Origin: Salibacteraceae bacterium
Lineage (GTDB): Bacteria > Bacteroidota > Bacteroidia > Flavobacteriales_G > Salibacteraceae
DNA length: 64,000 nucleotides
NCBI GenBank assembly: GCA_018401875.1
Contig: JAGYJZ010000003.1
Location: forward strand, 62,001-126,000
Reading direction: 5' to 3'
Of the stretch, positions 21,261 through 36,750 are shown in pieces; within the stretch, counting starts at the first letter, position 1; the number at the start of each line of letters is the position of its first letter. Below the pieces are notes generated by a model. It did no database searches. It saw only the letters and a program-made list of their open reading frames with translations, and had not been told where the DNA came from. A program made the position numbers and the translations under genes.

Positions 21261-21986
21261 CTACTCCGTAATGTCTAGTTTAATAGAGTTTTCATCGGGA
21301 GAAACACGTTTTATAATTTCCCATTCGCCATACTCATTGAGCCGTTGAATCTGATACTCTTTTACGCCTTTTTCCCATTGATTGTAATCGTTCCATTTCA
21401 ACTCTACCTCAAAGCCATCTTGGGTTTTTTGCAGTAAGATTGAACTTCCTGGCGATCCTTTTAAAGGAAGAATTTCGCAAGCGTTGCGAATTTCAATATG
21501 ATACGCAGCAAACTCTGCTTGAACGTCCGTTTCATAGTCGATAAAATCAGTTTGAAGCGGATTAAGCTCATAAATCACAGTGGGTCGTTGCTCAACCATT
21601 TTATGCAATTCAAACCGTTTTATCAGGTGCGATTCTAATTCGAGGGGCTTCCATTGAATGAGAATGCTTTCGTCTTCTAAAACCGTGGCCAACACAATGT
21701 TCACGGCTTTTCTCAATGAAGGCAAGGTGTCAACTACGATGGTTTTTACATTGCCAATCGCCTCAACGCCAAGGTCGCTCAAGTTGGTGGCAACAATGCG
21801 GTATTCCACTTTTTCAGGACAAAGGGCAGAGGTATCTCCAATGGCAGTTAACACCTCATTTCCGATGGTCCACGTCATCGATGGATTTACAGCGTATTGC
21901 GAAGCATCGCTTACCTCCACCGTTACCGGAATGCAATTCCCCAATTGCTTCGCTTTTGGTTTCGAAATAGGGGTTCTCTGTTTCAT
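21261..21986 (-). CDS. Orphan fibronectin-III-like fragment of a T9SS surface protein
   Basis: The ORF has FN3-like beta sequence (WKPLELESHLIKRFELHKM; VELKWNDYNQWEKGVKEYQIQRL) similar in style to the large type-B sorted protein at 56021-58804. It has no signal peptide and lacks the C-terminal gliding-motility (CHU_C) domain that normally follows such modules; it stops at SIKLDITE. The ORF is open up to 22142, eight bases from the initiator tRNA; the ATG at 21986 (MKQRTPIS) is one possible start. It is most likely a remnant of a longer surface-protein gene cut at both ends. Confidence 0.55.
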   Translation of the reverse strand: MKQRTPISKPKAKQLGNCIPVTVEVSDASQYAVNPSMTWTIGNEVLTAIGDTSALCPEKVEYRIVATNLSDLGVEAIGNVKTIVVDTLPSLRKAVNIVLATVLEDESILIQWKPLELESHLIKRFELHKMVEQRPTVIYELNPLQTDFIDYETDVQAEFAAYHIEIRNACEILPLKGSPGSSILLQKTQDGFEVELKWNDYNQWEKGVKEYQIQRLNEYGEWEIIKRVSPDENSIKLDITE

Positions 21987-22146
21987 GGTGGAGTGATTTG
22001 TGTTTCTCACTTTCAACATCAAAAGTATCTGGGCTCCAGCCGGATTAGTGTGACTCACATCATGTTCGAGGTTGAGAACGCACGACTTTATTAAATGAAA
22101 TACCACTTGATAATTGAGAATATGATTGTATCTTCGCAGCATAAAT

Positions 22147-22219
<73 letters not shown>

Positions 22220-22260
22220 CATAGAAGTTCAAAAGTGACTTATTGTAAGTTGTAAGGAAA

Positions 22261-22364
22261 GGATAGCTCGTTGGGCTCATATCCGCCAGCAGGCGGACGC
22301 AGGTTCGAGTCCTGTCCCCGCAACATAGAAGTTCAAAAGTGACTTATTGTAAGTTGTAAGGAAA
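22261..22364. repeat. tRNA-fMet 3'-half repeat, copy 1 (anticodon arm replaced)
   Basis: TAGCTCGTTGGGCTCAT is followed by ATCCGCCAGCAGGCGGA in place of the anticodon 3' stem and variable region. GCAGGTTCGAGTCCTGTCCCCGCAAC and the tRNA's own downstream flank (ATAGAAGTTCAAAAGTGAC) then follow. The inserted piece is a perfect TCCGCC-AGCA-GGCGGA hairpin. It cannot form a normal tRNA because it has no 5' acceptor strand. Confidence 0.85.
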
Positions 22365-22467
22365 GGATAGCTCGTTGGGCTCATATCCGCCAGCAGGCGG
22401 ACGCAGGTTCGAGTCCTGACCCCGCAACATTGAAGTCCAAAAGTGACATTTTGTAAGTTATTTGAAA
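22365..22467. repeat. tRNA-fMet 3'-half repeat, copy 2
   Basis: A tandem copy, 103 bases long, nearly identical to the previous 104-base unit, including the hairpin insertion. Differences concentrate at the 3' side (CCTGACCCCGCAAC, ATTGAAGTCC). Confidence 0.85.
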
Positions 22468-22588
22468 GGATAGCTCTTTGAGCTCGCAGGTTCGGATTTC
22501 AAGCGACTTAATTTTTTGATAGCTCTTTGGGCTCTCAGGTTTGAGTTAGCTAAAACACGACACTGAGCCCCGCAAAGGCGCTTTTTTT
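22468..22588. repeat. Degenerate tRNA-derived copies upstream of the GIY-YIG gene
   Basis: Two shorter, decayed units start TAGCTCTTTGAGCTCGCAGGTTCG (22471) and TAGCTCTTTGGGCTCTCAGGTTTGAG (22520). The last ends GAGCCCCGCAAAGGCGC followed by a run of seven T immediately before the GIY-YIG ATG. Confidence 0.65.
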
Positions 22589-22834
22589 ATGTTCACAGTC
22601 TATGCATTATATTCAGAGTCGAATGACAAGATTTACATTGGTTACACCAGTGACCTTGATGCACGAATGATTTCGCACAATGAATTATCTACAAAAGGCT
22701 ACACGATGAAGTATCGGCCGTGGAAGTTGATTTATACAGAAGTTTTTGAAGATAAAAGAGCGGCAATTCAGCGCGAAAAGTCGTTGAAATCAGCCAGAGG
22801 AAGGGCATTTATTTGGTCCATTATAGGTGGTTAG
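22589..22834 (+). CDS. Small GIY-YIG nuclease (UPF0213/YhbQ type) inside the tRNA-repeat array
   Basis: The 81-residue protein is one minimal GIY-YIG domain: VYALYSESNDKIYIGYT supplies the VYxLx/YIGYT strands, and the helix carries the catalytic-type Arg in DLDARMISHN. Glu in EVFEDKRAAIQREKSLK and a basic tail KSARGRAF follow. The family is widespread in Bacteroidota; its natural substrate is not settled. The gene is flanked on both sides by tRNA-fMet 3'-half sequences, and its last codons (TATAGGTGGTTAGCTC) run into the D-arm-like start of the next copy. That arrangement resembles a homing-type or tRNA-targeting element (inference). Confidence 0.9.
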   Translation: MFTVYALYSESNDKIYIGYTSDLDARMISHNELSTKGYTMKYRPWKLIYTEVFEDKRAAIQREKSLKSARGRAFIWSIIGG

Positions 22835-22903
22835 CTCAATCGGCTCCCAGGTTCGAGTCCTGTCCCCGCAACATAGAAGTTCAAAAGTGACTTAATTTTT
22901 TGA
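22832..22903. repeat. tRNA-fMet 3'-half repeat, copy downstream of GIY-YIG
   Basis: TAGCTCAATCGGCTCCCAGG then TTCGAGTCCTGTCCCCGCAAC and ATAGAAGTTCAAAAGTGACTT repeats the T-arm, acceptor 3' strand and flank of the tRNA-fMet gene exactly. The anticodon arm is missing. A further decayed trace lies at about 22904-22931. Confidence 0.8.
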
Positions 22904-36665: not shown

Positions 36666-36678
36666 AGTTTTCAATCTG

Positions 36679-36750
36679 TTGCCCCACTAGGACTCGAACC
36701 TAGACTGACGGTACCAAAAACCGCTGTCCTGCCAATTAGACGATGGGGCA
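36679..36750 (-). tRNA. tRNA-Gln (TTG)
   Basis: On the minus strand the 72-base sequence TGCCCCATCGTCTAATTGGC... folds into a cloverleaf. It has acceptor TGCCCCA/TGGGGCA, anticodon arm GCGGT-TTTTGGT-ACCGT with anticodon TTG, and T-arm CTAGG-TTCGAGT-CCTAG. CCA is not encoded. It marks the right boundary of the accessory island. Confidence 0.95.

Follow-up and report, generated by a model that had tools for sequence, protein, structure and literature searches.

The window, by which we mean the whole 64-kb stretch of DNA analysed here, contains a small gene for a GIY-YIG endonuclease-like protein that lies among broken copies of a tRNA-fMet gene, downstream of one copy that has stayed whole. The locus is laid out as follows.

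22147–22220, forward strand: intact tRNA-fMet (CAT), the putative target gene kept whole (ARAGORN; Rfam RF00005, 66.2 bits)
22221–22263, forward strand: tRNA 3′ flank, copy one, beginning ATAGAAGTTCAAAAGTGACTTA (exact 22-nt repeat)
22264–22324, forward strand: broken tRNA-fMet copy 1 (blastn E = 1.7e-34 to tRNA plus flank; 104-bp repeat family)
22282–22297, forward strand: palindrome TCCGCCAGCAGGCGGA in copy 1, standing where the tRNA has its anticodon 3′ strand ACCCAAAGGT (exact positions)
22368–22428, forward strand: broken tRNA-fMet copy 2, structured as copy 1 (104-bp repeat, blastn)
22386–22401, forward strand: palindrome TCCGCCAGCAGGCGGA in copy 2 (exact positions)
about 22471–22501, forward strand: degenerate copy 3, TAGCTCTTTGAGCTC then GCAGGTTCGG, without the palindrome (from the sequence; repeat family D1, 61%)
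about 22516–22549, forward strand: degenerate copy 4, without the palindrome (from the sequence; repeat family D2, 71%)
22566–22588, forward strand: terminator-like stem remnant and T-run (AGCCCCGCAAAGGCGCTTTTTTT), abutting the ATG start codon (from the sequence)
22589–22834, forward strand: gene for an 81-aa GIY-YIG endonuclease-like protein that consists of the catalytic domain alone (PF01541, E = 8e-19)
22826–22872, forward strand: right-hand broken tRNA copy, D-loop then T-arm to the tRNA end, palindrome lost (22845–22894 at 98% over 50 nt, E = 7.9e-20)
22873–22894, forward strand: tRNA 3′ flank behind the right-hand copy (exact 22-nt repeat)

A first-pass annotation, made from the sequence alone, had placed the GIY-YIG gene between tRNA-fMet copies, with its last codons running into the D-arm-like start of the downstream copy and the exact tRNA flank restored behind that copy. 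Comparison of tRNA-fMet plus 40 bp of flank with the 64-kb window bore out each of these points. Matches with E < 1e-10 were confined to this locus and lie on both sides of the gene: the tRNA itself, 22264–22364 (E = 1.7e-34), 22368–22459 (E = 1.5e-22) and 22845–22894 (E = 7.9e-20), while all other matches in the window had E of at least 0.065. The fMet copies are confirmed as real, far beyond chance. The stop codon of the gene is a D-loop-like TAG (GGT GGT TAG CTC, 22826–22837), and the 22-nt flank ATAGAAGTTCAAAAGTGACTTA occurs three times without a mismatch, at 22221–22242, 22325–22346 and 22873–22894. Two 104-bp repeats (22191–22294 and 22295–22398) each hold TCCGCCAGCAGGCGGA, and broken copies 1 and 2 both consist of tRNA positions 20–37, the palindrome and the T-arm to the tRNA end, followed by the flank. 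The terminator-like remnant before the start codon has an intact form in a genome of the same genus (G012), which reads ...AAGCCCCACAATGGGGCTTTTTTT-ATG.

The tRNA-fMet at 22147–22220 is the sole intact CAT tRNA of the window. It is uninterrupted according to ARAGORN and Rfam, so there is no group I intron layout, and Rfam found tRNA alone and no other family in the region of the locus. The window's tRNA-Gln (36678–36750) has no sizeable repeat nearby. Between pheT and tRNA-fMet lies a 293-aa ORF (21261–22142, reverse strand) with no Pfam match above the cut-off.

Judged by its profile match and conserved catalytic residues, the window protein is a member of the GIY-YIG nuclease superfamily: Y5, Y16, R26 and H30 are invariant in 26 relatives, and E63 is present in at least 90% of them. 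It has no recognisable DNA-binding domain. Its closest solved sequences are the UPF0213 (COG2827) proteins 1zg2 and 1ywl (E about 3e-15), followed by SLX1, whose catalytic domain matches with E between 1e-6 and 2e-8. Between measurable relatives dN/dS ranges from 0.06 to 0.27, indicating that the protein is maintained by purifying selection.

We found matches to the family HMM in 194 of 297 Bacteroidota genomes, with copy numbers that reach at least 19 per genome. Tandem arrays are common, with units of about 306–398 bp and up to 8 units. An intact tRNA lies within 1.5 kb of the gene in 113 of 134 non-redundant Bacteroidota loci and within 200 bp in 99, and gene and tRNA are co-oriented in 113 of 113. 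Across the 134 loci, tRNA density falls about 200-fold, from 2.4 per kb at less than 100 bp to 0.012 per kb at 1.2–1.6 kb. Among the 21 loci without an intact tRNA within 1.5 kb, about nine keep tRNA fragments, several end at contig ends and three are immediate 5′ neighbours of RNase P RNA. About a dozen of the 134 lack both an intact tRNA and a tRNA fragment, among them the genes next to RNase P RNA and others of the ordinary UPF0213-like kind. The enrichment near Bacteroidota tRNAs that the first-pass annotation mentioned is thus borne out by these 113 loci; for the linkage to rRNA genes that it also mentioned we saw no case, finding three genes at the RNase P RNA gene.

A second set of 79 loci came from named genomes scanned with a Met-clade alignment, and is biased to that clade. 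It spans Bacteroidota, Balneolota, Rhodothermia, Ignavibacteria, KSB1, Marinimicrobia and Cloacimonadota, with all loci on chromosomal contigs. A tRNA is nearby in 66 of the 79, always on the same strand, and a single tRNA was found in 191 kb beyond 1.5 kb. We found no description of this tRNA-linked GIY-YIG family in the open-access PMC literature. Judged against that literature, a large and apparently undescribed family of mobile genes of about 300 bases inhabits Bacteroidota and their relatives.

The Bacteroidota loci fall into two layouts. Type D (82 loci) has an intact tRNA, usually its terminator, the gene and then a tRNA 3′ fragment that mostly starts between tRNA positions of about 11 and 60. 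In type U (31 loci), the intact tRNA lies 3′ of the gene and mostly a tRNA 5′ fragment lies upstream, with its break mostly at tRNA positions 16–23; this type is frequent at Arg, Ser, Pro and Ala tRNAs. The linkage is therefore broader than the proposed one to tRNA 3′ ends: in 31 of the 113 loci the intact tRNA is downstream. Often the gene begins within a few bases of the tRNA end or of the T-run of the terminator, and in many cases tRNA-derived sequence supplies its stop codon, as in the window.

The clade of the GIY-YIG gene predicts the isotype of the tRNA. A tree built from 134 domains requires 31 changes of isotype label, against 81 when the labels are shuffled (0 of 200 shuffles); the tree has few alignment columns and many open forks, so that it shows clustering and no resolved phylogeny. 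Met and Cys labels require one change apiece, and the three rnpB-linked genes cluster together. In the second set the tRNA is tRNA-Met at 64 loci, tRNA-Asn at one and tRNA-Ile2(CAT) at none, and among CAT tRNAs near Met-clade genes tRNA-Ile2 accounts for 0 of 67. The fMet and elongator Met tRNAs used by the Met clade have TCATAACCCnaAGGTC in common, a shared sequence which suggests that the target of this clade lies in the anticodon arm.

Several loci stand apart. The Met-clade relative at tRNA-Asn, in a Candidatus Cloacimonadota MAG (L224), carries TCCGGCAGTTGCCGGA directly behind the anticodon GTT, positioned as in tRNA-Met copies. The genes next to RNase P RNA (L066, L078 and L139) form a GIY-YIG branch of their own immediately upstream of rnpB on the same strand, and 19–24 nt of the rnpB 5′ region recur inverted upstream of the GIY-YIG gene. 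The deepest branch (L001, L027, L033, L074 and L142) has no tRNA nearby and may be of the ordinary UPF0213 kind.

The window's genome (G000; 2.6 Mb, 82% complete) has three further small GIY-YIG genes. One is at tRNA-Phe and is followed by a tRNA-Phe 3′ fragment and a duplicated terminator, and another is at tRNA-Pro with broken tRNA copies. The UPF0213-like gene L001 (G000:C35:19251-22469) has no tRNA near it and is surrounded by long direct repeats in which GAGAACGACTAGG and CTTCTCGATAC occur.

In most broken tRNA copies of the family, one of the tRNA loops holds a GC-rich palindrome. Its usual place is the D-loop in type-U copies and either the anticodon arm or the T-loop in type-D copies. 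Among broken copies, 56% contain a perfect stem of at least 7, against 18% of intact tRNAs and 11% of control windows, a comparison that replaced a weak test of the longest perfect stem against simple shuffles (23 of 71). The Met-clade form, CTCATA, TCCGCC-N4-GGCGGA, C, replaces ACCCNAAGGT, the 3′ part of the conserved core, at a fixed position in the tRNA and with a sequence conserved across phyla. All 264 of 264 pair cells are paired in 44 distinct Met-clade sequences, of which only the inner two pairs count as evidence because the search pattern fixed the outer four. In 13 cells these two variable pairs have U-A instead of C-G, with both partners changed together, an agreement that is lost when the partner is slid.

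The leftover copy thus has its core replaced by the palindrome, and the intact tRNA of filled alleles keeps the core. We would regard the palindrome as a part of the element through which the leftover copy loses its target core; that it is also a nuclease-binding or regulatory site is speculation by analogy with the SLX1 relatives. In a mosaic test of fMet against elongator-Met sequence, both palindrome flanks match the resident tRNA at nearly all Met loci, whereas a simple donor-arm model predicts donor sequence on one side. This weakens the simple version in which a donor brings the tRNA arms, and appears to favour local duplication, conversion or donors within the species. The T-arms of the two copies at one locus (L207) differ, which suggests foreign sequence in one of them.

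Comparison of orthologous tRNA loci, mostly between species rather than strains, revealed presence/absence polymorphism at fixed tRNA targets in relatives. In genus g19 (G204, G280), presumably Flavobacterium, the elongator-Met locus is filled in 1 of 30 species and empty in 29. The G204 locus holds five units and the decayed start of a sixth, and in the ten genomes closest to G204 the locus is empty, with upstream identity of 92–96% and an identical tRNA. At the fMet locus of the same genus 4 of 30 are filled, and at least one has palindrome copies alone. The terminator before the G280 fMet gene is unlike the one common among its relatives, and the genus-common terminator (AAAGCTTCAGAGAAATCTGGAGCTTTTTTT) sits behind the broken copy; the G204 sister element occupies a different tRNA gene from that of G280 and has a homologous foreign terminator. 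Within the genus of the window, G012 has an element at the pheT-fMet locus, G011 a truncated relic there, and the G013 locus is empty. The insertion polymorphism on which the first-pass annotation had made its proposal depend is thus present, together with relics, and its homing-like, tRNA-linked reading is supported and extends across the phylum.

We also observed gene-less loci. Three fMet loci of G280 relatives (L281, L288 and L302) carry element-type terminators or palindrome-bearing tRNA copies and are probably scars of lost elements. Tandem duplications of a whole tRNA-fMet without a GIY-YIG gene (L285, L287, L289-L294 and L303) are common in G280's genus. Two loci of the window's genus, L152 (G020) and L154 (G014), have a palindrome-bearing tRNA-fMet fragment behind the tRNA and no gene, and their tRNA-fMet is inverted relative to pheT.

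Taken as one reading, it is likely that these genes are chromosomal, isotype-specific, free-standing homing-like GIY-YIG elements of tRNA genes in Bacteroidota and related phyla, and that the window locus is a partly decayed array of such a minimal mobile element. The GIY-YIG protein would break or nick the tRNA gene in a loop: at the anticodon core TCATAACCC-N-RAGGTC in the Met clade, presumably in the D-loop for type-U clades and in the T-loop for some others. Recombinational repair would then install the element and re-form one complete tRNA beside the leftover part, whose target core the palindrome would destroy; recombination between the repeated tRNA parts could give rise to arrays and relics. 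As the cell needs the tRNA, survival would be limited to outcomes that include an intact one, and since a working tRNA is always left, elements could occupy essential genes and the host would live. Several observations count against a simple form of this scheme. The protein lacks a recognisable DNA-binding domain, the palindrome flanks at Met loci match the resident tRNA, about a dozen loci have no tRNA part at all, and the palindrome is missing from some copies in the window. In filled alleles, moreover, the putative target is preserved in full in the intact tRNA, so that homing by cutting, inserting and becoming immune is an incomplete account and self-cleavage must be avoided in some other way. 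Recoding of the intact tRNA to escape cleavage was considered and rejected, as the anticodon core is the same in filled and empty loci.

We offer a bolder version tentatively, as a possibility that we would not yet expect to hold in full: minimal autonomous elements of about 300 bp, each made of one catalytic-domain GIY-YIG gene, one hairpin and half of a tRNA and spread across the superphylum, might break tRNA genes and rescue them at once as a natural cleave-and-rescue drive, with each clade reading its isotype by a tRNA loop and an SLX1-like nuclease using the palindrome for recognition, immunity or regulation.

Among other explanations, local duplication survives best. Staggered nicks about 50 nt apart would let the terminator and ORF be pasted in, and gap filling would duplicate half of the tRNA, as for a small transposon. 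The match of the palindrome flanks to the resident tRNA speaks for such a process, as do the occurrence of both 5′ and 3′ half-duplications and the joint movement of terminator and gene between fMet and elongator-Met genes with local tRNA pieces. However, there is no transposase, the duplications vary widely in length, with fragments starting anywhere from about position 11 to 60, the palindrome is left unexplained and the T-arm difference at L207 suggests foreign sequence; recombination, moreover, explains the arrays equally well. We consider local duplication alone unlikely.

If the gene were instead a conserved cellular nuclease co-transcribed with tRNAs, serving tRNA-gene repair or turnover, its same-strand placement, purifying selection and wide distribution would follow, and the broken copies would be recombination debris. 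A host gene, however, sits poorly with orthologous loci filled in just 1 or 4 of 30 congeners, with decayed relics and arrays of up to 8 units, and with isotypes that differ between clades, and we find this account very hard to sustain.

Another possibility is that the palindromes belong to ordinary genome-wide REP-like repeats, which would have reached non-functional tRNA copies independently of the element. Similar palindromes are indeed dispersed in some genomes, with 9 in all in the window's genome and 28 in G073. In G204, however, the pattern occurs five times, all five inside the element and none elsewhere in 4.8 Mb; this exclusivity, the fixed form and tRNA position, the cross-phylum conservation and the compensatory changes speak strongly against a plain genome-wide REP for the Met clade, and unrelated repeats in general seem highly improbable.

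tRNA 3′ ends are classic attachment sites, and the genes could in principle be leftover cargo of integrases, islands or prophages that use them, but array units of about 306–398 bp hold the GIY-YIG ORF alone and no integrase, 5′ half-duplications and palindromes misfit integrase sites, and collections of phages, plasmids and viral contigs yielded distant, weak relatives only, which makes hitch-hiking the least credible account. An origin of the family from phages or plasmids was likewise rejected: the plasmid and phage matches are below 46% identity, and the two matches that we inspected have no annotated tRNA beside them.

Bacterial selfish nucleases are known mostly from introns, inteins and phages. 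Under the preferred reading, of homing-like elements that leave a working tRNA, a family present in about two thirds of the sampled Bacteroidota genomes, with copy numbers of up to at least 19, would represent in nature what cleave-and-rescue drives are by engineering. The very common and so far unexplained gene annotated as ‘GIY-YIG nuclease family protein’ would then be accounted for, as would the broken copies and the short tandem arrays that accompany Bacteroidota tRNAs. The family would also be a ready natural set of nucleases whose target preference, the isotype, can be read from context.

The elements share domain and size with UPF0213 (COG2827) proteins, for which we know of no described mobile habit. 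SLX1 offers a precedent for reading DNA structure over sequence and is no mobile element; it has a second domain and a partner, SLX4. The REP sequences that accompany tyrosine transposases are likewise short GC-rich palindromes. Unlike them, the palindrome described here has a fixed place within a tRNA copy beside a GIY-YIG gene, and is sometimes exclusive to the element.

One of the two closest parallels is SegB of phages T4 and T6, a GIY-YIG homing endonuclease that is free-standing and encoded in the phage tRNA region. SegB cleaves within tRNA genes, after which recombination tandemly amplifies the segment of tRNA and nuclease; cutting of the donor is thought to be inefficient, and the association shows no isotype preference (PMC13096335, citing Brok-Volchanskaya 2008). 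Both systems have a GIY-YIG gene adjoining tRNA genes, with tRNA cleavage shown for SegB. In contrast to the phage-borne SegB, the elements described here are chromosomal, isotype-specific by clade, made of the catalytic domain alone and accompanied by a palindrome-bearing half tRNA.

Group I introns with homing endonucleases, which occur in bacterial tRNA genes, are also selfish, nuclease-linked and leave a working tRNA (PMC3984707). They interrupt the tRNA and are spliced out, whereas the elements here have no intron and the tRNA would be re-formed at the DNA level.

The other closest parallel is found in fungal mitochondria, which harbour mobile ORFs at atp6 in Allomyces and at atp6, atp9, cox2 and nad3 in Glomus; there, a free-standing endonuclease arrives in an essential gene with a replacement gene end, and the native end is left downstream (PMC3630166). 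The same text concerns mitochondrial protein-coding genes and mostly LAGLIDADG enzymes, with one GIY-YIG; it describes no palindrome in the part available, and the inserted end there is clearly foreign, which is less clearly so here (PMC3630166). The G280 terminators fit such a supply of a gene end; the tRNA halves themselves are indistinguishable or local.
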